41,531 nucleotides of DNA from a virus: the IMG/VR virus record IMGVR_UViG_3300021963_000250, positions 1 through 41,531 of that record, one strand, 5' to 3'. Both the position numbers and the translations under genes were made by a program. Positions 15,783 to 36,602 of the stretch are shown here, in pieces. Position 1 is the first letter of the stretch. Each line of letters opens with the position of its first letter. The notes below the pieces were generated by a model that worked only from the letters and a program-made list of their open reading frames with translations, had not been told where the DNA came from and ran no database searches.

Positions 15783-16358
15783 TTATTTGTATCCTATTAC
15801 CATAAATCTATTTTTATGACCAAGTGACAAACGGCCACGAAATGTTATACTACTTAGACGTGTTTTTTTGACAAACTCATCTGTACTCTGTGATGTATTT
15901 ACATGCCCTGGATCATTCCGGTTATCACACGTCTGTAATACAAACAAGCACTCAGGATTATCAGTAAGATGATCTCCTATCATATTCATATGCTCGCACG
16001 ATGTGTTGATAATCAAGTCCACGTGGAATTTTTCTGTGTGACTCAAAACATCAAATTGATGGAACGATATGTTTTTTTGACGGTGTATAATTTTAGCCGT
16101 TTCTAAGGTGGATTGATTGATATCATTGAAATAGATATGTGTGGGATCAACAGCCTCTTGAAGAAGAGGAACAAGATAACTACCATACCATCCACCTAAT
16201 ATAAGTATTGTTGGATTAGCAGGAAGCGGGCGTTTGACCAGAGTATCCACTAACCATTTTTTTGACTTATATTGAGTCTCGCTGATCGAATCAGCTATAT
16301 CATCAACATTGCCTCCTGAGCGGAGAGCAGCAGACAGGAAAGTTAGGTATTCATACAT
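15783..16358 (-). CDS. SAM-dependent methyltransferase-like protein
   Basis: From the ATG at 16358 this is 191 residues (MYEYLTFLSAALRSGGNVDD). A Rossmann-type start, NPTILILGGWYGSYLVPLLQ, resembles the glycine loop of class I methyltransferases. It is followed by THIYFNDINQ (acidic residue at the end of strand 2), FHQFDVL (motif III-like) and DLIINTSCEHM (motif IV region). The same frame is open 31 codons further upstream, but those residues are hydrophobic and antisense to the plus-strand gene. The chosen start has AAAGG 8 bases ahead and lies one base from the plus-strand start (CAT-T-ATG). The fold assignment is by motif only and the substrate is unknown. It belongs to the possible modification cassette. 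Confidence 0.6.
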   Translation of the reverse strand: MYEYLTFLSAALRSGGNVDDIADSISETQYKSKKWLVDTLVKRPLPANPTILILGGWYGSYLVPLLQEAVDPTHIYFNDINQSTLETAKIIHRQKNISFHQFDVLSHTEKFHVDLIINTSCEHMNMIGDHLTDNPECLFVLQTCDNRNDPGHVNTSQSTDEFVKKTRLSSITFRGRLSLGHKNRFMVIGYK

Positions 16359-16359
16359 T

Positions 16360-17100
16360 ATGCAGCCTTTAAGTATTTTATCCGTCAAAATTGGCACCAA
16401 GTATAGTAGCGAGATGGTCAATAATTTATATATCATGTGTTGCAAAAACATATCAACACCGTTTAAATTTTTCTGCTATACAGACGATACGACTGGATTA
16501 CGACCAGAAATCAATCCCATTAAATTTGCTGATTATGATTTTGAAGTTGTTTACTACAACAAGCTAGTAATGTTCAGTGATTGGTTTGATCAACACCTAC
16601 TGCCAGGTAAGCGTGTTTATTTTGACATTGACCTTGTTATTAAATTCAACATCGACGATATTATAAAATCAGCAAAAGGTGACCTAACTCTAATAGATGC
16701 TGTTTGGAGAGAAAAGTTTGCACACGGATTTCCTGTATGGCACCACCCGTTCAATAGCAGTTGTATGGTTTGGGAAAAATCAGAAAAAACAATTGCTATA
16801 TGGGATCACATTATGGATGATCCTGAAATGTTTATGAGTAAGTATCACTGGGGAATGGATTCTTTTCTGTTCTATGAAAAAGAATCCATAGGTGTTGATA
16901 TAAGATATTTTCCTGCTCGAAAATTCTACTCACACCTGTTTGGTGTCGATCACAGCGAAAACAAACTACATGACCCTATCCTAGGAGGATACAGGCCAAG
17001 TAAATTTGTGGAGGTTGTTAAGAAAATTCCCGTAGTTCTTTTGAACGGACCGACTACAGAAAAAGACTATGAGTCTTACAAAGAGTATTACGCCGTTTGA
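16360..17100 (+). CDS. Glycosyltransferase-like protein, the only plus-strand gene
   Basis: Starting at the ATG at 16360 (MQPLSILSVKIGTKYSSEMV) the protein is 246 residues. The N-terminal part reads like a GT-A nucleotide-sugar-binding fold (PFKFFCYTDDTTGL). The metal-binding DxD is at residues 89-91 in KRVYFDIDLVI, and VWHHPFNSSCMVW with HWGMDSFLF fits acceptor-side segments of GT8-like enzymes. An upstream ATG at 16309 would add a basic, unlikely extension read antisense to the methyltransferase gene. The start is one base from the divergent methyltransferase start, and the end overlaps the convergent oxygenase-like gene by 13 bases, so it fills the space between them exactly. I see no clear promoter for it. 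A modest AGG lies 12 bases before the start. Confidence 0.75.
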   Translation: MQPLSILSVKIGTKYSSEMVNNLYIMCCKNISTPFKFFCYTDDTTGLRPEINPIKFADYDFEVVYYNKLVMFSDWFDQHLLPGKRVYFDIDLVIKFNIDDIIKSAKGDLTLIDAVWREKFAHGFPVWHHPFNSSCMVWEKSEKTIAIWDHIMDDPEMFMSKYHWGMDSFLFYEKESIGVDIRYFPARKFYSHLFGVDHSENKLHDPILGGYRPSKFVEVVKKIPVVLLNGPTTEKDYESYKEYYAV

Positions 17101-17720
17101 ATATCTTCGTACATATCTTGCCACATACCTTCGTGTGGAATGATATATCCTAATGTAACCCGCTCTTCATGTTCAGCACTTGCACAGTGCCAATAGATTT
17201 TTGAAGGCTCATGCCAAGCTCCGTAATACCCAACCTTGCATGTCCATCCCGGCGAGTCATGCATTGTAACAATTTCTTTTGTAATTGGGTCTTGATATCT
17301 AAAAAAACCTTTACCTTCCTTTGACCAAGAAAGCAAGATATTGTATCCGGATGCATTAGCATTGTGGTGCCAACCCATGTAACCACCTTTGGGGTACAGC
17401 ATCTTAACTGCATTATTTCTTGAACCGGACCAAGTCATTAAACGTTGATCAAGCACAAGTAACGCTTCGCGTAACGAAGCTTGAGGTGGTTGAAATCTCA
17501 TTAGATCGATTCCGTGCGTCTTTTCCGGAAACCCATCTACTTTTTTATTTTGCATTATTTGTAAATATTCATCACCACATGCATATTCTGGAGTGACCAA
17601 ACCACCCTTTCCTAACCCCTCATCATAAGGATATGTTGATCTATCTGCTCTCAATAAGACTTCCAACCAATCATCTAAGATTGATGTTAGTTCTTTATTC
17701 TTTACTTTGATTTCTAGCAT
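17088..17720 (-). CDS. Possible Fe(II)/2-oxoglutarate-dependent oxygenase
   Basis: This 210-residue protein has a C-terminal half that looks like a double-stranded beta helix: YPKGGYMGWHHNANASGYN, NILLSWSKEGKGFFRYQDP, then WHCASAEHEERVTLGYII. H118 or H119, H178 and R187 are placed like the first His, distal His and 2-oxoglutarate-binding Arg of the superfamily. The acidic metal ligand expected two residues after the first His would be Asn120 (H118-H-N), so catalysis is uncertain, or Asp is supplied from elsewhere. Cyanophages often carry such oxygenases. The gene starts 26 bases inside the end of the glycosyltransferase gene and converges with the plus-strand gene. It could modify protein side chains or a sugar. 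I am moderately sure of the family and unsure of activity. Confidence 0.45.
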   Translation of the reverse strand: MLEIKVKNKELTSILDDWLEVLLRADRSTYPYDEGLGKGGLVTPEYACGDEYLQIMQNKKVDGFPEKTHGIDLMRFQPPQASLREALLVLDQRLMTWSGSRNNAVKMLYPKGGYMGWHHNANASGYNILLSWSKEGKGFFRYQDPITKEIVTMHDSPGWTCKVGYYGAWHEPSKIYWHCASAEHEERVTLGYIIPHEGMWQDMYEDIQTA

Positions 17721-18435
17721 CTTCGTTTCCTAAGCCAATATGAATATGTTTTGATGGTACTGTATGATGCCAAAAAATTATAGGACTACTTGTTTCACTC
17801 TTCTTATATCCGTTAACAAAATTCCACCGTGCATCATCTTCAAAAAAGTCAACCCTAACATCTAACTTGTCAACATTCAACAGCTTCCAAAATGTAAACT
17901 GATCCCACTGCTGCAGCGATGAAGGACACTCATGTTCTTCATAAGGCCACGGCTCTTTTCTTTGGATAAAATAATCTTTCCACCACCTATCCATGAAATC
18001 AATTGTTTTAGGATTGTTACGGTACAAGAAAAAACCACCGTGATGGATCAGTTCTCCGTTTTTCCATTTTGAAATCTTACCGTTGTATGGTCGGATCTTT
18101 GTAATAAGGATATCGACATCTTCCGGAATTTGATCCCATATTGTGGATACATCTGTGTGCATGCATTCCATATCAGCATCGATGTATGCAGTAAGATTTG
18201 TATAAGGCGTCTTACTCAAAGCATACAATTTTGTTCTGACGTGGTTAGGAACGTCCTCACTAATAACTAAATCAAATGCTTGACGATCGACTAAAGGTAA
18301 AAAAGAATCCGTTGTGAAAAGCGTTATGTGTGCATCTGGATAATTATCCTTAATGCTATTGGCACAGAAATTCGCAGTTTGCACATATTCCTCCGTTAAG
18401 GAGGCAACAATCAAAAAACCATTACGAACTATCAA
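17695..18435 (-). CDS. Glycosyltransferase-like protein with TTG start
   Basis: This 246-residue protein begins (M)IVRNGFLIVASLTEEYVQT. The GT-A features are clear: a first strand FLIVASL, NYPDAHITLFTTD, and the metal-binding DAD at residues 86-88 in TAYIDADMECM. Later segments are GGFFLYRNNPKTIDFMDRWW and a C-terminal PIIFWHHTVPS. No ATG lies between the in-frame stop and the first strand. The start is TTG at 18435-18433 with GGGAG exactly 8 bases ahead, inside the end of the previous gene. The sugar donor and acceptor are unknown. It is not obviously a duplicate of the plus-strand enzyme, although both are 246 residues long. Confidence 0.75.
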   Translation of the reverse strand: MIVRNGFLIVASLTEEYVQTANFCANSIKDNYPDAHITLFTTDSFLPLVDRQAFDLVISEDVPNHVRTKLYALSKTPYTNLTAYIDADMECMHTDVSTIWDQIPEDVDILITKIRPYNGKISKWKNGELIHHGGFFLYRNNPKTIDFMDRWWKDYFIQRKEPWPYEEHECPSSLQQWDQFTFWKLLNVDKLDVRVDFFEDDARWNFVNGYKKSETSSPIIFWHHTVPSKHIHIGLGNEDARNQSKE

Positions 18436-18438
18436 AAT

Positions 18439-18891
18439 TTATTCTCCCGGTGTCGATTCTTGTTGTTCAGCCACTTCCTTATTGGCTTCTTCAAGCATTA
18501 AAACAGCAGCCCAAGCCATTGCTTCGACATCACTCTTTGATTTGCGAATACGCGACTTCATAGATCTATTTTGTGAGTTTTTAATAGAATCAATTTCAAA
18601 TATTTTTAGCTTAGCAGCAAACAACTCTTCTTGTTGCTTTCGCAGAGCCTGAGCTTCTTTTTGCTCTTTATCTTTTGATCTTTGATCTGCTAGCTGTCTA
18701 ATTTTTCGCTGAGTGTTTTCTTCGAGCTGCTGATCTGTAAACTTCTGTTTGATCTCAATCAAGTCGGGATTTGTCGTTTCAGATTCAGAAATAGTAGCAG
18801 TCAAAACTCTGCCATCTTCATACTGAAAGTCTGCAGAAATTACTGTTCGTGCATTATTAATCCAATGTGGATTTACAATAGTTCTTTTCAT
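18439..18891 (-). CDS. Coiled-coil hypothetical protein, 150 residues
   Basis: The N-terminal 45 residues look like a small beta domain (MKRTIVNPHWINNARTVISA, then FQYEDGRVLTATISESETTN). Residues about 50-110 form a highly charged helix rich in Gln, Lys and Glu (LADQRSKDKEQKEAQALRKQ), and the end is helical and Ala/Glu-rich. The combination of a small beta domain and a long helix is seen in some fibre-assembly chaperones (T4 gp38 and gp57A-like roles), but I see no specific similarity. It has a strong ribosome site (GAGGT, 5 bases before the ATG) and follows the YxGx-repeat protein by 28 bases. The glycosyltransferase start is 3 bases downstream of its stop, so the two are probably co-translated. 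Confidence 0.6.
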   Translation of the reverse strand: MKRTIVNPHWINNARTVISADFQYEDGRVLTATISESETTNPDLIEIKQKFTDQQLEENTQRKIRQLADQRSKDKEQKEAQALRKQQEELFAAKLKIFEIDSIKNSQNRSMKSRIRKSKSDVEAMAWAAVLMLEEANKEVAEQQESTPGE

Positions 18892-18919: not shown

Positions 18920-20767
18920 TTAAGCAGTTCTTACCCATAATGTATATGTAGTAGTTGTGGTTGCCGATTGTACAGTCAAACCACTATAAGATCCAGTGAA
19001 TGTACGAGAGAATGTATTATTATACACACCAGTGAATACTTGGTTGTATGTTCCTACATATGTACCGGCATACGTACCTGCATATGCACCAGCATATGTA
19101 CCGGCATATGTACCTGAAAAGTTTTGTGAGTAGTTTCCTGTGTAGGCACGTGTATAGTATCCAATGTATAGACCTTGATAGGAACCCACATACGCGCCAA
19201 TATATGCGCCAGCATATGAACCAGCATATGTACCAACAAAAACGGTTTGGTAGTTTCCTGTATACAAACCGGTCCAATAAATACTATATACACCAAGAAA
19301 GCTACGAGACCAGGTACCTGTATAAGATAAACCTAGAACTCCTGTATATACTGAGGAGCCATAAGCACCTGTATAATACCCAACATATGGACCTGACGCA
19401 TAGTATATTCCTGTTGAGGGATTCAAAGTATTACGCGTGTAGTATCCAGCATATGCGCCTGTGTATGACGAAGTATATGCTCCAGCAAAGTTAGTTACAT
19501 AATATCCGGTGTAATACTGAGCTCCCCAAGGTTGGTAGTCTACGCGGTACCTAACAAAAGAACCAGCATAATATCCAACAAAACCTCCGCTAGCATAAGT
19601 ACCTTGTGTTATCGTAACCCAAATACCGGTGTATGATGACGAATAGTATCCAACGTAATGATTTATATAACCTCCAGCATACGTGCCTGCAAAGTTACCA
19701 ACATATCCTCCGGTATAATTTCCCGAATAAAAACCGGAATAGTTACCCGCATAACTACCCGTCCATAAACGTGAATATATGTCTGCGTATGTTGTATTAT
19801 AACTACCAGCAAATGTTCCTACATATGTTCCAGCATAGATACCGGTATAATTTCCGGAATATACGCCAGTATAGTAACCGACGTAATTTCCTGTAAACGC
19901 ACCTGTATAGCCACCAGTAAATGCTCCAGTGAAACTACCAACGTATGTGCCAACGTATGCTGTATCAACTAAGTTATTAACGGTATCAGTGTACGAACCT
20001 CTACTGATCCACGTGCCCGTACCCGGAGCAGATACAGAAAAAGAATACTTACCTATTCCCGTTGTACGAATGTATTCGCCGACAAATGAAGCTAGCTGTT
20101 CGATTTCACTATTTGTCATCTCTGTAAGACGCGTCTCACCACCAGCTGTATTTGTAATAGTTAATGGACGAATCGTACCAACGGATCCCCCACTTGTACG
20201 CAACCAAAGTGTATACCCGATACTTTGATATACATTGCTTGAGTTATAATAATTATCCGTCAGGTTGGATACTGCAACCCATGTGCCTGTCGCTGGTGCT
20301 CCAGCTGATGTCAGACCAAGATAGTAAGCGCCCTGACCACCAGTGGAAATACTGTTCACAATAACAGGCATAATATCATTGATTATGTCCTGATTTGTCA
20401 TTGCAGATATTTTTACTTCATTACCTACTAACGACTGCTGAATTGGGCGAACACCAGCTACTGCTGATAATCCTGGATTGAACTCGTTTTGAACAACTGT
20501 GTAGGTTGTTGTTGAGACTGTTCGAGGATGCGTCCCGATTGAGTCGGTTTCTGTATTATAACCAACACCACGAGTTACAAAATTATAGCTTGGAGGGGTT
20601 ATGCTATAAGATCTTACAACGCTACCACTTGGACCTGAAACTTCAGATAGGCCTGACCAGTTTGCAACAACAAGAGGTAATATCAAATCGGAGATGTCTG
20701 CATCCGACATCTCCTGTACACCTACTATTAATGCTCCTGAATATTTTGCTTTTAGAGGTCTTCCCAT
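18920..20767 (-). CDS. Fibre-like protein built of aromatic-x-Gly-x tetrapeptide repeats
   Basis: This 615-residue protein has two parts. Residues 1-265 hold three copies of a domain of about 85 residues. Each starts with a similar helix (VQEMSDADISDLILPLV; ISAMTNQDIINDIMPVI; LTEMTNSEIEQLASFVG) and continues with a GTW-type beta segment. Residues about 270-595 are a tetrapeptide repeat, aromatic-x-Gly-x, for example FTGNYVGYYTGVYSGNY, with small interruptions. The protein ends TTTTTYTLWVRTA, which matches GYTLWLRTSGG at the end of the second domain copy, so the repeat appears to sit inside the third copy. There are no cysteines and few charges. I do not recognise the repeat. The neighbours are all fibre-like, so it is probably exposed on the virion. 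The start overlaps nothing and follows the previous stop by one base. Confidence 0.8.
   Translation of the reverse strand: MGRPLKAKYSGALIVGVQEMSDADISDLILPLVVANWSGLSEVSGPSGSVVRSYSITPPSYNFVTRGVGYNTETDSIGTHPRTVSTTTYTVVQNEFNPGLSAVAGVRPIQQSLVGNEVKISAMTNQDIINDIMPVIVNSISTGGQGAYYLGLTSAGAPATGTWVAVSNLTDNYYNSSNVYQSIGYTLWLRTSGGSVGTIRPLTITNTAGGETRLTEMTNSEIEQLASFVGEYIRTTGIGKYSFSVSAPGTGTWISRGSYTDTVNNLVDTAYVGTYVGSFTGAFTGGYTGAFTGNYVGYYTGVYSGNYTGIYAGTYVGTFAGSYNTTYADIYSRLWTGSYAGNYSGFYSGNYTGGYVGNFAGTYAGGYINHYVGYYSSSYTGIWVTITQGTYASGGFVGYYAGSFVRYRVDYQPWGAQYYTGYYVTNFAGAYTSSYTGAYAGYYTRNTLNPSTGIYYASGPYVGYYTGAYGSSVYTGVLGLSYTGTWSRSFLGVYSIYWTGLYTGNYQTVFVGTYAGSYAGAYIGAYVGSYQGLYIGYYTRAYTGNYSQNFSGTYAGTYAGAYAGTYAGTYVGTYNQVFTGVYNNTFSRTFTGSYSGLTVQSATTTTTYTLWVRTA
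18980..19960 (-). repeat. Coding tandem repeat, 12-base period, (Y/F/W)-x-G-x
   Basis: The DNA shows exact 12-base units, for example 19061-19072, 19073-19084, 19085-19096 and 19097-19108, each coding one tetrapeptide. Units vary at synonymous and x positions, so the array is not a young expansion throughout. Because 12 is a multiple of three, gain or loss of units would keep the frame. Confidence 0.85.
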
Positions 20768-21757: not shown

Positions 21758-23653
21758 TTATTTTATTAACTGCGCAAAGAGTTTTACACTTGAGCTTGCT
21801 TTTGTTTGTTTAAAACCAACCGCAACGTGTGTTGTATTTATTAAGCCAGAAAACACTCCCAGATTTGCCGAAGCTGGAGATGAAACTGTACCATACACAG
21901 TCATAATAACATCTGTTCCGTTTTGTGCAAGAATCAATTCCTGCACTTGATTATTCGTTGCTGCTGCGTCTGTTATTTTTGCAGTTACTTTTGCTCCTGT
22001 GTAAGTTCCAATCGGGAAACTAAACAAGTTTACAACCGTAAATGCTGTTGGATCACCAACAGAAGTATTTGCAACGCCAATGTTTGTGTTAGAAATTACA
22101 GCAAAAACAAAATCTCCACTGGCTCCGTATGTAGTATTACCTGTTACAGTGAGCGTACCGTTAGTGCTTATTGTGTTTGATGTAATCGTTGTATTTACTG
22201 TCGTATTACCAATTGCTATGGACGTTGCACCAAGAGCCGTATTAACAGTAGTGTTTCCTACAGTTAAAGCTGTCTGAGTCAATACAGCATTGACAGTATC
22301 ATTACCAATTTTCAGCTGCGTTGTAGTAACATTTACATTAGCACCAACATTAAGTGATGCTGCATTAACAGTTCCTGCAAATGTTCCGTATGATGAGGAA
22401 TTTATGAAACCGGTAATAGTTGTGTTACCTGCTGCAACTGTTGCGGTTGTTGTTATTGCTGTTGGTGTTACAGATGTGTTGACTGTCGTATTACCCACAA
22501 CAAGTGCTGTCTGAGTGAGCACATTGTTTACCGTTGCGTTGCCAATATTAAGTTGAGTTGTACTTACGTTAACATTAGCACCAACGTTCAAAGCAAACGT
22601 ATTAACAGTACCAACTGTTGTGTTACCAACCACGATACCACTTTGTGTGATTGTTACGTTGCCTGTAGCATTACCAACAGCATACGACGTAGTTGATAGA
22701 TTGACGTTAGCACCAATATTCAAAGCAAATGCATTAACTGTACCAACAGTTGTATTACCAACAACAATACCACTTTGATTTATCGTTACATTACCAGTAG
22801 CGTTACCAACTGCATAAGCTGTAGTGTTAATATTTACATTTGCGCCAACGTTAATAGCAGTTGAAAGATTAGCTGTAGGACCAACAACATTACCATTGAG
22901 TGTTGTCAAACCTGTGACAGTCAATGTGTTTGACATTGCTACGTTGCCAGTAACAGTTGCTGTGTTTACTGTTATTGTGAGGTTACTTGTTGATGTATCA
23001 CCTAACAGCTGAACACTTGTTAGTGAGCTATTTGCTTTTAATGTTGTGTTACCCGTAACAGTGGATACACCTTGTAAACCAAAAGATACTGCGTTGATAT
23101 TTACGTTTGCATTTGTAATAGAAACGTTTGATGTGACATTAGCCAACCCACCAACGAGATTGAAGATCGATGTGTTGGTATAGGTGTTTGCGTTAACAAT
23201 AGAAACGTTAGATGTAACATTAGCAAGACCACCAACAAGCGTTGTCGCTAGAGCGTTTATTGTTGTGGTTGTTGATGTCACACTGACATTAGAAGTAACA
23301 TTTGCTAAACCACCAACAACGTAGAAAGCAGTTGCATTGATATAAGTGTAAGCTGATCTAATTACTACATTGCTCGCTGCATTGATAGTAGCACCAGTAA
23401 ATGTAACGTTTGAAGTAATGTTCAGGTTTGAGCCAACATTGACCGTTCCACCGCGTAAGCTTTCACCAACAGCAACCGTATTTGCATTAAAAATACCAAT
23501 CAATTGCGAATTACCAGATACATTGGCACCGTATGGAGAGCTGTTAGCGGTTAGAGCATAGTTCGTGAAGGTGTCCGCCATAAAGTTCGTGACACCTACC
23601 CACGTCGCAAAAGAATCAGTTGCTATGACAACATTAGATACCGGTCTTGCCAT
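21758..23653 (-). CDS. Fibre-like structural protein with GNTTVNT repeats
   Basis: This 631-residue protein has a beta-rich start (MARPVSNVVIATDSFATWVG). Residues about 60-190 are four long repeats, each with a VGGLANVTSNVS-type core. Residues about 225-510 are shorter repeats of the form ANVNxSTxxxxIGNxTVN followed by VVGNTTVGTVN. The C-terminal 115 residues (AVISNTNIGVANTS to KLFAQLIK) are a separate domain with IGTYTGAKVTAKITDAA, VQELILAQNGTDVIMTVYGT and VAVGFKQ. I know that pattern as a common terminal domain of cyanophage structural proteins. No S74 chaperone is present. The start overlaps the end of the 75-residue gene by 20 bases. The role, shaft of a fibre or long spike, is inferred. 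Confidence 0.75.
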   Translation of the reverse strand: MARPVSNVVIATDSFATWVGVTNFMADTFTNYALTANSSPYGANVSGNSQLIGIFNANTVAVGESLRGGTVNVGSNLNITSNVTFTGATINAASNVVIRSAYTYINATAFYVVGGLANVTSNVSVTSTTTTINALATTLVGGLANVTSNVSIVNANTYTNTSIFNLVGGLANVTSNVSITNANVNINAVSFGLQGVSTVTGNTTLKANSSLTSVQLLGDTSTSNLTITVNTATVTGNVAMSNTLTVTGLTTLNGNVVGPTANLSTAINVGANVNINTTAYAVGNATGNVTINQSGIVVGNTTVGTVNAFALNIGANVNLSTTSYAVGNATGNVTITQSGIVVGNTTVGTVNTFALNVGANVNVSTTQLNIGNATVNNVLTQTALVVGNTTVNTSVTPTAITTTATVAAGNTTITGFINSSSYGTFAGTVNAASLNVGANVNVTTTQLKIGNDTVNAVLTQTALTVGNTTVNTALGATSIAIGNTTVNTTITSNTISTNGTLTVTGNTTYGASGDFVFAVISNTNIGVANTSVGDPTAFTVVNLFSFPIGTYTGAKVTAKITDAAATNNQVQELILAQNGTDVIMTVYGTVSSPASANLGVFSGLINTTHVAVGFKQTKASSSVKLFAQLIK

Positions 23654-32327: not shown

Positions 32328-35300
32328 TTAGGAGATATCAATACTATTTATGACTGTCATTGTCATGTTAGCAGACGAGAGTGAATTTACCTTACCAAAT
32401 GCTTTTGTTCCTGCTACGTGTGTAACTTTCTTTAGCACCTCAAAGTATTTGTCAAAAGGTATCTTTGTTTGGATTTCGTAACTGTATTCTTGATAGTAGT
32501 TATTGTCTTGAAGCTTTTTGTCCTCATCCAAGAAACCACGTGTCGATGAGAAGAACCCAGCACCTACACCTTGTCTACCAAGTTCAACAATAGCTGTAAC
32601 TTCATATTGTGAATCTGCTTTTGTTAACGTCACTGTTTCTTGATCAATATAACCGAATCCTGAATCATACACATCTAGTCTCTTAACAACGTTATTAGCT
32701 GTTTGGACGTTGGCTTCAATGTTAGCATTGAGTCCAATAGGAACCGTTGCAAGATCTTGATCAATTGTCAATACAGTTGCAGTTACACCTGAAGAACGAC
32801 CTATGATTGTCGATCCAGCGATAAATGTATTTTCAAGATTAATTCTCTTCAAACTTAGCGCGCTTGTATTTGATCCTGATTTTACCAATGCTCTTGCTGT
32901 TGTTGCAAATGTCGTCAAAGCAGCAGCTGATGCATTTGAAGTTGAACCAGAAGAAAGACCTTTTATCAATGTTGTTACTGATGTAGTAGGAACAAATGTA
33001 CCGGTAACATTACGTAACTTAACAGAACCAGCTCCCGAACCATTTATTTCCGCTTGAAGAACAAAACCAGAAGCCGCTACGTTTGCTGTTGAATTAGATT
33101 GATAAACAAACTCTGTTTCTACAAATGTTGTTGCTGGTGTTCCATTTGCGTATGTTCCTACAAACGTATTCAATGTCAACAAAGTAGCTGGTGAATCATA
33201 CGTTTGTTGTATCTGCTCTCCTGTCAAGAACACGCCGGAAGGATTGCTTATCCTCATCAAGTAATCGTGTTTGTCGTAACCAGAAACGTATGGGTCATGC
33301 ACAACAACAAAAGGATCAACGTTGTAATCAGATCCTGGATTCAAGCCAGAGATTGCAGCAATAGATCCAATCACTGTTGCATCAAAACGTAATGCATCAA
33401 GCAAGACGGTATCCATATTTGCACCAGGGAATTTGACAAATCCAAGCCCTTTGTGTTGTATATCACCAGTAGAAAGAATTCTCAACGGACCAACCAAATG
33501 ATGTCCTGTTTGATTTAACCCCGCTGTTAGCGCAATACGTGTCCCTGCTTGCGTCGCTTTCAATGATACGTGAGTAGCATTGGATTGGTCAATGTAATAG
33601 ACAGTATTTGTTGTTAATCCACCAACAACCGTGTTACCTGCACTTACATAATAGCGAATTGCTGTGTTTGGTGAATAACCGATAGCATTGCTGAATGCAA
33701 TTGTATTGTTTGAACCTGTTGTACCAGCTCGAGCAAGGAAGTGGCCTGTAGCTAATGCAGAAGATGAGTTGGCGGTTATGTTTATTGGTGAACCACCCGA
33801 TGTTGTTGAAAGCTGTAACGAAGAACCACCAGCAATTGCATTAACAACATAATACGTTGTATTATTAGCTAAACCACTTATTACCGTGTTAGAAGGATGT
33901 GTCGTATATACAACTTGTTCGTTATTACCAAACACATGAACAGTCGATGTCGTGATAATATCCGTTGCATTTGCAACACCTGAATTTGCATTAAATGTAA
34001 CTGTCGTTGGTAGCTTAACACCGCTACCGCCTGTTCCACCAGTTACATTTGTTGAAGCATTGAATGTATCATCAGTACCATAACCAGCTGTATTAGTATT
34101 AGCGTTGAATCCATTCAAAAGAACGCTGTGAAATACAACATTACCTGTGTTGTTACTGCTCAAGAAGTCTGGTGTTAAAAATACGTTTTCCGTGTCAGTC
34201 AATAAACTAATATTTAAATTAGCACCGCTACCAGTACTTACGTTTGCAACAAGAGCAGTTGTGTTAGAGATGTAACCAACAATGTTTGCATATGGAGTTA
34301 TGATAAATCCATTGCTTGATAAATCCGTTACACCCAAAAAGCCAGTATTACCCGTTGATGTGTTTGAGCCAACGACATTACCTGATGCAGTACGATCTTC
34401 ATATGAAGTTATAACACCTGTCCCCAGCGTCTCGATCAAGAAGTGACCGGTTTCGTTACTTCCTTTTGTCAGGCTAATAGGCAAACCATTCAGTGTATTT
34501 GATAGCTGTAGTGTAGTTGTTCCAGGTACAGCATTGACGACATAATAAGCTGCACCAACAGAAAGTTCCGCAATCTGCGTGTTACCTGTAGCAACATGGT
34601 ATCTTACCATATTACCGTTACTGAAATTATGAGATGCTACCGTGTTAATTAGTGATGCACCAGTAAATATACTAGTAAAGAATCCAGTATAACTACCAAC
34701 ATAGGATCCAGCATATGCGCCACTAAAGTTTTGCGTATATGCTCCTGAGAAGGTTTGATTATATGTGCTTGTCCATGCTGACGAATAGGCAGCTACATAT
34801 TCTCCGGAGAACACATTTGTATAAGCTCCTGTCCACAACCTTCCAAACGCACCACTGAAAGTCCCAACATATCCACCAGCATACTCACCCGTGTATGATG
34901 AATTATAGCTTCCTGCATAATTAGCAGTCCATGATTTCGTCCATGTGCCTGTCCATGATCCACTATAAACTCCTCCACCACCCCATGGATAGGGAAGACC
35001 AGAGAACGAAGCAGCGCCATATACACCTGTGTATCCAGCTTGATTAAATGTTCCAGTATAACCTGGACCTGCATACACTGTACCTGCATATGGGTTGTTT
35101 ACATAATAAGTTACAAAAGCTCGAGAAAAAGAAGATCCAATAGTAGAGTTATAGTTTTGTGTATAACTACCAACGTATTCTTGAGTATAGGCTCCCTGAT
35201 ATGTTCCAGTAAACACACGACTAAACGCACCAGTATATTCACCAGAGAACGAGTGTGTTACATTTCCTGCATATGCACCTGACCATCCGCGAAGATACTC

Positions 35301-36602
35301 AGATGTATAAGCTCCACTAAAGCCTCCAACATAACCACCAGTAAACGAGCCTGAATATCCACCAGAATAATATCCAACATACGATCCAGTAAAGCTTCTT
35401 GTAAATGAATATAAAACATCTCCAACAAGTGAAGCATTAAAGTTTGCTGTATCAGCATTACTTGCACGAATAGCAAACGTACTGTCTATTGCCACCAAAT
35501 TACCCGTAGCTGGTGCAACAATTATGTAACCCGTATTAGATGTCGTTTTTGATGTTGCAACAATGACACCGTTTGCATTGACCGATCCATCAAGATTGTA
35601 ATTTTCTACAACGTTACCAATTTCAAAATTGACGTTATTGCCTCTTGCTGTTGTATAACCAACATTTGCTAATTGCTGTGTAACTCTCTCAAATCTTTGA
35701 AAATCGGTAATATCACTATTCGAATTGCCAATATTGGTTAGCGTTAATACTTTTGATGATATAATGACATTAGCATGAGCAAGACTGTACCCCCATCCAC
35801 CACTGTTCAATGCATCGATAAAAATAAACGACACGCGACCAGTTTCGTTTGATATTTCAGTAACACGAGCAACACCTTGCTTACCGTTCGATGATACGAC
35901 ATTGAACAAATCACCAACAGCAAACTCTGCTCCACCAGCAATCACAGTCAAGGATGTCATAGAGCCAATTACGGTTGGAGAATTTTCTAAAACCTGATTG
36001 CTCGTTGTTGTTATTTGTTCACCAGTAATAAAGTCGCCACGAACATTACTTAAATAAGCGACTTCAAGATATTTCGAACCGATTCTTCTTCTAACTAAAC
36101 TCTCTAAGAAAGCTTTAGCTCCACTATTAGAACCAATAATCTCTTTACCGACAAAAGTTTTTGTACGTTCAGAAACAGACAACTCAAGATAGACAGGCTT
36201 AACCCATGTCCCATCAGATGTCTTAAAAAGATCGTTACCAGGAAAATAAAGATTTGCTTCTTCGTTAAACAAACCTTGCATAACAAGTTTTACACCGCGC
36301 TCTGTACCTTTTGATTTGTACAAATCACTTGCATGCTTAACTAAGAATTGTGTATTTGCTTCAGTTGTAAGAGGAAGCCCTTGTAAGTATTTGTTTTTAA
36401 AATACTGAACAAACTGTTCCGATGTTGTATCAATGTTTCGATAATCAAGAAGGTTACGAGAAGCATTAAGCGCCTGATCCTGCTGCTCCATCCATTTATA
36501 ATACTCTTTGACAAAATCAATGAAGCGAGAACCCTCATCCTGATAAAATTCAGGAAAATGTGTCTTAACAAGAGGAAATACTAACTGCTCGATTTGTCTC
36601 AT
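32328..36602 (-). CDS. gp7: gp7-like baseplate wedge protein enlarged by repeats
   Basis: Residues 1-130 resemble the C-terminal core of T4 gp7: MRQIEQLVFPLVKTHFPEFY, then FIDFVKEYYKWMEQQDQ and SDLYKSKGTERGVKLVMQGL followed by FNEEANLYFP. T4 gp7 has DFYSTKGIEASYKFLFKVLYNEE there. The last 50 residues (FEVLKKVTHVAGTKAFGKVN) recall its VHPVGFGF segment. The roughly 1100 residues between are additions: GDFITGEQITTTSN-type modules, the YxGx repeat (about 400-650) and three YYVVNA modules near 690, 930 and 1010. T4 gp7 is 1032 residues and organises the wedge with gp6. The gene lies between gp6 (ATGA overlap) and gp8, as in T4. The alignment is from memory and by eye. Confidence 0.7.
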   Translation of the reverse strand: MRQIEQLVFPLVKTHFPEFYQDEGSRFIDFVKEYYKWMEQQDQALNASRNLLDYRNIDTTSEQFVQYFKNKYLQGLPLTTEANTQFLVKHASDLYKSKGTERGVKLVMQGLFNEEANLYFPGNDLFKTSDGTWVKPVYLELSVSERTKTFVGKEIIGSNSGAKAFLESLVRRRIGSKYLEVAYLSNVRGDFITGEQITTTSNQVLENSPTVIGSMTSLTVIAGGAEFAVGDLFNVVSSNGKQGVARVTEISNETGRVSFIFIDALNSGGWGYSLAHANVIISSKVLTLTNIGNSNSDITDFQRFERVTQQLANVGYTTARGNNVNFEIGNVVENYNLDGSVNANGVIVATSKTTSNTGYIIVAPATGNLVAIDSTFAIRASNADTANFNASLVGDVLYSFTRSFTGSYVGYYSGGYSGSFTGGYVGGFSGAYTSEYLRGWSGAYAGNVTHSFSGEYTGAFSRVFTGTYQGAYTQEYVGSYTQNYNSTIGSSFSRAFVTYYVNNPYAGTVYAGPGYTGTFNQAGYTGVYGAASFSGLPYPWGGGGVYSGSWTGTWTKSWTANYAGSYNSSYTGEYAGGYVGTFSGAFGRLWTGAYTNVFSGEYVAAYSSAWTSTYNQTFSGAYTQNFSGAYAGSYVGSYTGFFTSIFTGASLINTVASHNFSNGNMVRYHVATGNTQIAELSVGAAYYVVNAVPGTTTLQLSNTLNGLPISLTKGSNETGHFLIETLGTGVITSYEDRTASGNVVGSNTSTGNTGFLGVTDLSSNGFIITPYANIVGYISNTTALVANVSTGSGANLNISLLTDTENVFLTPDFLSSNNTGNVVFHSVLLNGFNANTNTAGYGTDDTFNASTNVTGGTGGSGVKLPTTVTFNANSGVANATDIITTSTVHVFGNNEQVVYTTHPSNTVISGLANNTTYYVVNAIAGGSSLQLSTTSGGSPINITANSSSALATGHFLARAGTTGSNNTIAFSNAIGYSPNTAIRYYVSAGNTVVGGLTTNTVYYIDQSNATHVSLKATQAGTRIALTAGLNQTGHHLVGPLRILSTGDIQHKGLGFVKFPGANMDTVLLDALRFDATVIGSIAAISGLNPGSDYNVDPFVVVHDPYVSGYDKHDYLMRISNPSGVFLTGEQIQQTYDSPATLLTLNTFVGTYANGTPATTFVETEFVYQSNSTANVAASGFVLQAEINGSGAGSVKLRNVTGTFVPTTSVTTLIKGLSSGSTSNASAAALTTFATTARALVKSGSNTSALSLKRINLENTFIAGSTIIGRSSGVTATVLTIDQDLATVPIGLNANIEANVQTANNVVKRLDVYDSGFGYIDQETVTLTKADSQYEVTAIVELGRQGVGAGFFSSTRGFLDEDKKLQDNNYYQEYSYEIQTKIPFDKYFEVLKKVTHVAGTKAFGKVNSLSSANMTMTVINSIDIS
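32345..32352 (-). promoter_or_regulatory. Late-promoter-like box CATAAATA before gp8
   Basis: This box has one mismatch to TATAAATA, lies inside the last codons of the gp7-like gene and ends 25 bases before the gp8 ATG. The distance suits a short leader, but the AT-rich background makes this uncertain. Confidence 0.25.
34655..35405 (-). repeat. Coding (Y/F/W)-x-G-x repeat inside the gp7-like gene
   Basis: Starting at SFTGSYVGYYSGGYSGSF (about residue 400), roughly 250 residues follow the same tetrapeptide rule as the 615-residue protein. They are more degenerate, with many Y-T-Q-x and F-S-R-x variants and a Gly/Pro-rich break (LPYPWGGGGVYSG). They end near SYTGFFTSIFTGAS. The flanks are ordinary baseplate sequence. 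Confidence 0.85.

Follow-up and report, generated by a model that had tools for sequence, protein, structure and literature searches.

A tetrapeptide aromatic array in a phage fiber-like protein that may form one giant mirror-coded beta-hairpin

Results

The window (the whole stretch of DNA that was analyzed, 41,531 nucleotides of virus record IMGVR_UViG_3300021963_000250) encodes a 615-aa protein in which residues 271 to 596 (positions 18980 to 19957) make up a YxGx array (Table 1). The gene lies after genes for baseplate wedge and fiber-like proteins and before further fiber genes, and this position suggests a tail fiber or adhesion needle. Nearby, positions 21758 to 23653 (- strand) encode a 631-aa protein of Asn/Thr-rich GNTTVNT-like repeats without a family match.

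Table 1. Features of the array gene, its downstream neighbors, and the second array of the window
Feature	Positions	Strand	Basis
Array protein, 615 aa	18920..20767	-	ORF; relatives found
Three tandem alpha/beta modules, probable anchor, aa 1-270	19958..20767	-	Alignment; AlphaFold2
Outgoing arm, aa 271-387, ~29 tetrads, single phase	19607..19957	-	Phase analysis
Irregular middle, aa 388-477, predicted hairpin turn/tip	19337..19606	-	Phase breaks
Returning arm, aa 478-596, ~29 tetrads, other phase, mirror-coded to outgoing arm	18980..19336	-	Phase and mirror tests
Last strand of module 3 (TTTTYTLWVRTA), aa 597-615, closes the insertion	18923..18979	-	Alignment, AlphaFold2
Charged protein, ~150 aa, encoded by the next gene downstream	18439..18891	-	Conserved synteny
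GT-A-like glycosyltransferase, invariant DxD, TTG start	17695..18435	-	Glycogenin profile, E 9e-4
Candidate 2OG-Fe(II)-type dioxygenase, invariant HxN...H...R	17088..17720	-	Motif
Baseplate wedge protein, 1424 aa, with second array	32328..36602	-	phrog_17744, E 6e-158
Wedge array, outgoing arm, aa 400-497	35112..35405	-	Phase analysis
Wedge array, irregular middle, aa 498-545	34968..35111	-	Phase analysis
Wedge array, returning arm, aa 546-647	34662..34967	-	Phase analysis

In the array, the lag-4 recurrence of aromatic residues was 0.79, and the value for Gly two residues after an aromatic was 0.60. YxGxYxG occurred 33 times in 325 residues (0.83 in shuffled sequence; maximum, 5), and 62 period-4 aromatic triples were counted in the 326 array residues, versus 6.1 after shuffling (maximum, 19; 5,000 shuffles). 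Ten further large proteins encoded in the window had zero to two such triples each. By these counts, the repeat that an earlier note had described from the sequence exists. Identical residues four apart shared their codon in 47% of cases (45% expected). Since synonymous codons are randomized, the repeat rule is kept by selection on the protein and not by recent DNA duplication, and a young tandem DNA expansion was ruled out as the origin of the array. TRF detected only short 12-bp patches.

The first 270 residues form three modules with the alignment consensus QEMSDADI...GIGxY...GTW...G...DT...YTLWLRT, for which AlphaFold2 predicted a strands-helix-strands pattern three times (pLDDT mostly 75 to 96). 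The insertion site of the array is in module 3, between its final two strands and immediately ahead of the closing TTTTYTLWVRTA; in an array-free homologue (L063; 281 aa), the flanks of the insertion are joined directly. The strands predicted by AlphaFold2 at the array base (residues 253 to 279 and 586 to 613) are neighbors in module 3, and likewise in a relative, L050. Within the array, the only semiconfident stretch of the AlphaFold2 monomer was 501 to 560, with 6-residue strands, a period of 8, and no single long strand. The pLDDT was about 30 over residues 280 to 500, so that the regular, confident solenoid anticipated in the earlier note was not obtained.

We found the array in at least 191 IMG/VR loci. 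The only match among 50,697 phage records was C48C1 (Kyanoviridae; 3347 aa), and the only one among 84,980 genomes was on an Acidimicrobiaceae MAG contig, which may be a misbinned phage. The shortest array had 49 residues and the longest 2376 (median, 145). In the family tetrads, position 1, aromatic by definition, was Y in 73%, F in 25%, and W in 2%; position 2 was T/S/A, with T/S in 59%; position 3 was Gly in 65% and otherwise R/K/Q/T; and position 4 was variable. The arrays are rich in Y/G/S/T/N/Q, and His made up 0.23% of about 25,000 array residues. One aromatic and Gly rule had been proposed for the whole of about 325 residues. Its aromatic part is invariant, but Gly holds position 3 only in the above share of in-phase tetrads, and the array is not a single run, as its two arms are in different phases and flank an irregular middle. 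Similarly, the proposed lack of charge applies to the window array (9 K/R/D/E per 325 residues) but not to the family, in which K/R reach 14% and D/E 11%. Neither an adhesive surface nor the absence of charge is general among its members.

The array protein of C48C1 (L001, 14983-25026) is Arg-rich and combines regular units of 12 residues (YSRTRVSSYDGT) with nonrepeat domains embedded in it. Three other loci (L004, 2274-5993; L005, 2429-5992; L006, 2-2134) have an array protein with a terminal Gly-rich domain (SVWGDSAFKFKA), encoded immediately upstream of a giant array gene.

Searches of Pfam, PHROGs, NCBIfam, and PDB sequences with the protein, the array, and short homologues yielded only chance matches and a subthreshold Gly-zipper (PF13488; 19.1 bits, below the curated cutoff of 25), which was rejected. 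Foldseek searches with both models against PDB and BFVD gave nothing at an E value of ≤0.001. The view that the repeat lies outside described families held up in these databases, and a description of it was not found in the literature searched (published, mostly open-access papers). Across the family there was no common superperiod or solenoid rung; superperiods differ between proteins. The parity of spacings was discarded as proof of beta-strands, being weak once multiples of 4 were removed (184 even versus 179 odd).

We determined arm lengths independently from each array end, a measure that is trivial for arrays without a phase slip. Many members have matched arms (16/16, 20/20, 36/36, 56/56, 88/84, 100/96, 448/448, and 512/504 residues), as do proteins collected later (460/456, 132/132, and 740/764); in several others (L002, L021, L046, L049, L052, L003, and L028), the arms differ in length or slips are numerous. 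The slips themselves are mirrored: 144 of 292 had a counterpart in the other arm, versus a permutation mean of 68.5 (maximum, 85). In one protein (L023), 14 of 15 slips were mirrored (2.5 under the null), mostly to the exact residue, and those at 448, 470, 492, 562, and 580 fall at identical positions when counted from the opposite end. Furthermore, apart from one gap position, the arms are gap-free between relatives at 43 to 63% identity, as for a ruler. In these comparisons, variability in the middle or tip did not clearly exceed that of the arms, and hypervariability of the tip, which we looked for between relatives, was not seen. One array (L027, 6431-7684) carries a central RFFAGFSGG motif twice, as if the tip region were duplicated.

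In a solenoid of tight turns, as suggested in the earlier note, or in a triple beta-helix of tetrapeptide turns like T4 gp5C, the chain would run outward only. Such a one-way path would account for the strict period of 4 and for the short AlphaFold2 strands with a period of 4 to 8 in part of the array, and gp5C is itself built on a Gly-containing octapeptide (PMC3004832). However, it predicts neither matched arm lengths nor mirrored slips nor the mirror-order residues described below; the two array ends adjoin neighboring strands of a single module; and neither a shared higher rung length nor a PDB or Foldseek match was found. Arms of equal length that are mirror-coded need an out-and-back antiparallel pair, and we regard a one-way path as very unlikely. 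The known one-way solenoids (pentapeptide, hexapeptide, and gp5C) were rejected as models, because the constant rung and unidirectional order that characterize them contrast with the missing shared superperiod and the mirrored order of the arrays.

To read the arms against each other, we scanned 33 registers in 31 non-redundant proteins, with n as the length from the first to the last ladder aromatic. F/W residues coincided in mirror order at i+j=n+3 (112 versus 50; z, 12.7), and non-Gly residues at position 3 coincided at i+j=n-1 (138 versus 87; z, 9.8). Simple arm-wide gradients are ruled out, since adjacent registers were flat or depleted for both signals. With three giant proteins removed, the F/W signal had a z of 7.1 and the position-3 signal fell to 3.2. 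Both registers would follow from a single geometry, antiparallel pairing at i+j=n+1, in which each aromatic lies across from position 3 of its partner; the aromatic-aromatic and position-3-position-3 coincidences would then be the two diagonals of a block.

Taking position 3 together with the aromatic that follows it as one block, we counted 110 F-F block pairs in mirror order in 23 proteins, versus 49.4 expected (z, 12.9). The same-direction control gave 42 versus 49.6 (z, -1.6), and no same-direction shift worked. In 94 of these 110 pairs, Gly stood opposite non-Gly (55 expected). Y-Y blocks paired like with like (281 GG, 95 XX, and 32 mixed, versus 162 mixed expected). The favored block pairs were GY:GY, XY:XY, and GF:XF, where X is bulky. 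In 45 held-out proteins, analyzed in the preset register, there were 145 F-F pairs versus 94.4 (z, 8.7), whereas shifts by one block gave z values of -3.3 and -1.0 and the same direction gave -1.6. The F-F complementarity recurred in this set (96 mixed versus 70 expected), and the like-with-like preference of Y-Y blocks was weaker (159 mixed versus 216 expected).

The window protein itself follows this code. Its first four outgoing Phe blocks (2, 3, 5, and 12) face the returning Phe blocks 2, 3, 5, and 12, each GF standing opposite RF, NF, QF, and QF, respectively, and block classes match in 19 of 29 cases (11.9 expected; z, 4.2) in that mirror register only. The permutation z values assume independent proteins and are inflated because these proteins are related; neither the specificity for one register nor the same-direction control nor the held-out set depends on this inflation. 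The mirror order cannot stem from DNA duplication or inversion, because those give same-order or reverse-complement peptides, the latter with different residues.

Low AlphaFold2 confidence and a composition rich in Y/G/S/T/N/Q are also what a disordered, sticky low-complexity linker of aromatic stickers and spacers would show. Disorder, named in the earlier note, together with absence from virions, as an outcome that would speak against its proposal, yields no residue-exact mirrored coding. Nor does it fit a phase conserved over hundreds of residues, arms without gaps at the above identities, or the low dN/dS of the second array (see below). We therefore hold a disordered linker to be the least probable of all readings considered, with hardly any weight left to it.

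The same register could also arise between chains, the arms pairing across neighboring subunits of a dimer or trimer. This would impose the same sequence constraints, and the chains of the T4 gp37 needle interweave and turn back (PMC9603124). Nothing decisive counts against it, as sequence cannot tell intra- from interchain pairing; we rate it a serious possibility that is nonetheless less probable than pairing within one chain.

The same marine phage has a second array, at residues ~400 to 647 of its baseplate wedge protein, whose two runs of 24 to 25 tetrads are separated by about 48 middle residues. It is present in eight relatives (L212-L219) and lacking, with the flanks joined, in three (L220-L222; 57 to 62% identity), and thus appears as a clade-specific insert with precise boundaries. 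Its mirror code is weak (z, 2.6; register 0). Compared with L213, its dN/dS was 0.064, and it kept 62 of 63 aromatics and 44 of 48 Gly, versus 115 of 142 other residues. These values indicate that the wedge array is under purifying selection.

Three genes follow the array gene in conserved order. For the first, encoding the charged protein, a role as a chaperone is conceivable. In the glycosyltransferase-like gene, D86 and D88 were invariant in 24 sequences, and a few members had weak matches to GT8 (2 of 24) and related Pfam families. As in GT-A enzymes, the DxD follows a nucleotide-binding N-terminal half. The dioxygenase-like protein resembles 2OG dioxygenases by motif alone, with an invariant HxN...H...R beside their HxD/E...H...R facial triad. 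It had no match in Pfam, PHROGs, NCBIfam, or PDB, and its hhalign alignment to a bona fide dioxygenase covered only the GGYxxWHxN motif (17 columns; probability, 12%). All 104 informative array loci (those with enough sequence) carry both enzymes; in three apparent exceptions, a second long array gene fills the locus. L063, the only array-free homologue found, has retained the gene for the ~150-aa protein but neither enzyme gene, and a locus with a vestigial array (L258) still has both. The co-encoded glycosyltransferase and dioxygenase-like protein probably modify the array. Modification of virion proteins by phage glycosyltransferases is known; in mycobacteriophages, capsid and tail proteins are glycosylated (PMC12363180).

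A second glycosyltransferase-like gene (16309-17100, + strand; phrog_1962, E 1.4e-5) lies on the opposite strand and is also kept nearby in relatives. In one subgroup, a bona fide 2OG-Fe(II) oxygenase (PF13640, E 4e-15) adjoins the cassette (L307, contig PBYV01000077.1).

The share of T/S at position 2, the conservation of both enzyme genes, and the mycobacteriophage precedent (PMC12363180) would fit a scaffold for the display of dense glycans, in which glycosylation outweighs register and length. This leaves the mirror code unexplained, and the assignment of the oxygenase is weak; that glycan display is the main role seems to us doubtful.

Discussion

The reading that we prefer, with a probability of roughly 0.78, is that the array folds into a single giant antiparallel beta-hairpin, held in register, and acts as a fiber needle. 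The chain would exit the third N-terminal module via one strand of the module hairpin and extend outward as the outgoing arm, its aromatic residues and Gly facing the same side. After turning at the irregular tip, it would come back, exactly in register, to the final strand of module 3, so that both ends sit at one globular domain, as the module-3 insertion, the matched arms, and the mirror code suggest. Each GxY block would pack against a block of the opposite arm, and the mirror-order pairs of blocks could hold a long, otherwise uniform hairpin in register. The N-terminal modules would serve as the anchor, and the needle is probably oligomeric. We infer the beta structure from four features: facing with a period of 2, spacings of 4 and 6 residues, composition, and the strands that AlphaFold2 places at the hairpin base. 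The stacked aromatic ladder envisaged in the earlier note is compatible with these data. Fully extended at 0.33 nm per residue, the arms of the window protein would be about 38 nm long. Binding of a receptor at the tip, by analogy to T4 gp37, is only a guess.

In a wider sense, the family may use a written complementarity code, in which mirror-order letters on arms as long as about 750 residues set the antiparallel register. Single-chain hairpin fibers of tens to hundreds of nanometers, dedicated enzymes, and transplantation between a fiber and a baseplate protein would belong to this picture, which we think somewhat favored by the evidence. The mirror-coded hairpin would then be a new category, while its presumed general role, that of a virion fiber, is of a known kind. 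If this is true, the code can be read as a folding code by which distant stretches of one chain recognize each other blockwise, somewhat like nucleic acid hairpins. The choice of register in very long beta ribbons would become directly testable, and a programmable fiber material would be at hand. It would also annotate a family absent from Pfam, PHROGs, and NCBIfam and provide a candidate enzyme pair for the modification of virion fibers.

Among known systems, some otherwise unrelated proteins, in part tail fiber-like (L167, L183, and L206), contain FxGx tetrads of the GSFTGSFTG type. Their GSFTGSFTGSF stretches consist of few tetrads and lack the module and the arms. The putative glycosyltransferase resembles glycogenin and GT8 in its GT-A-like N-terminal half with DxD, but the similarity is low and extends over about 100 residues. 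The triple-stranded beta-helix of T4 gp5C, the baseplate needle (PMC3004832), also has a short Gly-containing repeat; it differs as a one-way octapeptide helix without mirror-paired arms or an aromatic ladder.

The closest likeness is to the T4 gp37 needle (D10-D11, the distal tip of the long tail fiber). Its chain is described as emerging from a globular knob and doubling back at the tip; both termini lie at the knob, into which the stem domain is inserted (PMC9603124). The array shares the predicted out-and-back path from a knob and a T4-like tail gene neighborhood. It has, however, no sequence or fold match to gp37, and the HxH metal motifs along the gp37 stem are absent from the His-poor arrays. 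A mirror block code and period-4 aromatics are not described for gp37, and its needle of about 20 nm compares with the 38 nm given above and with more than 240 nm for the arms of L281, if fully extended at the same rise. Judged from its sequence, the array would work like the T4 gp37 needle as an unrelated structure and not as a member of its family.
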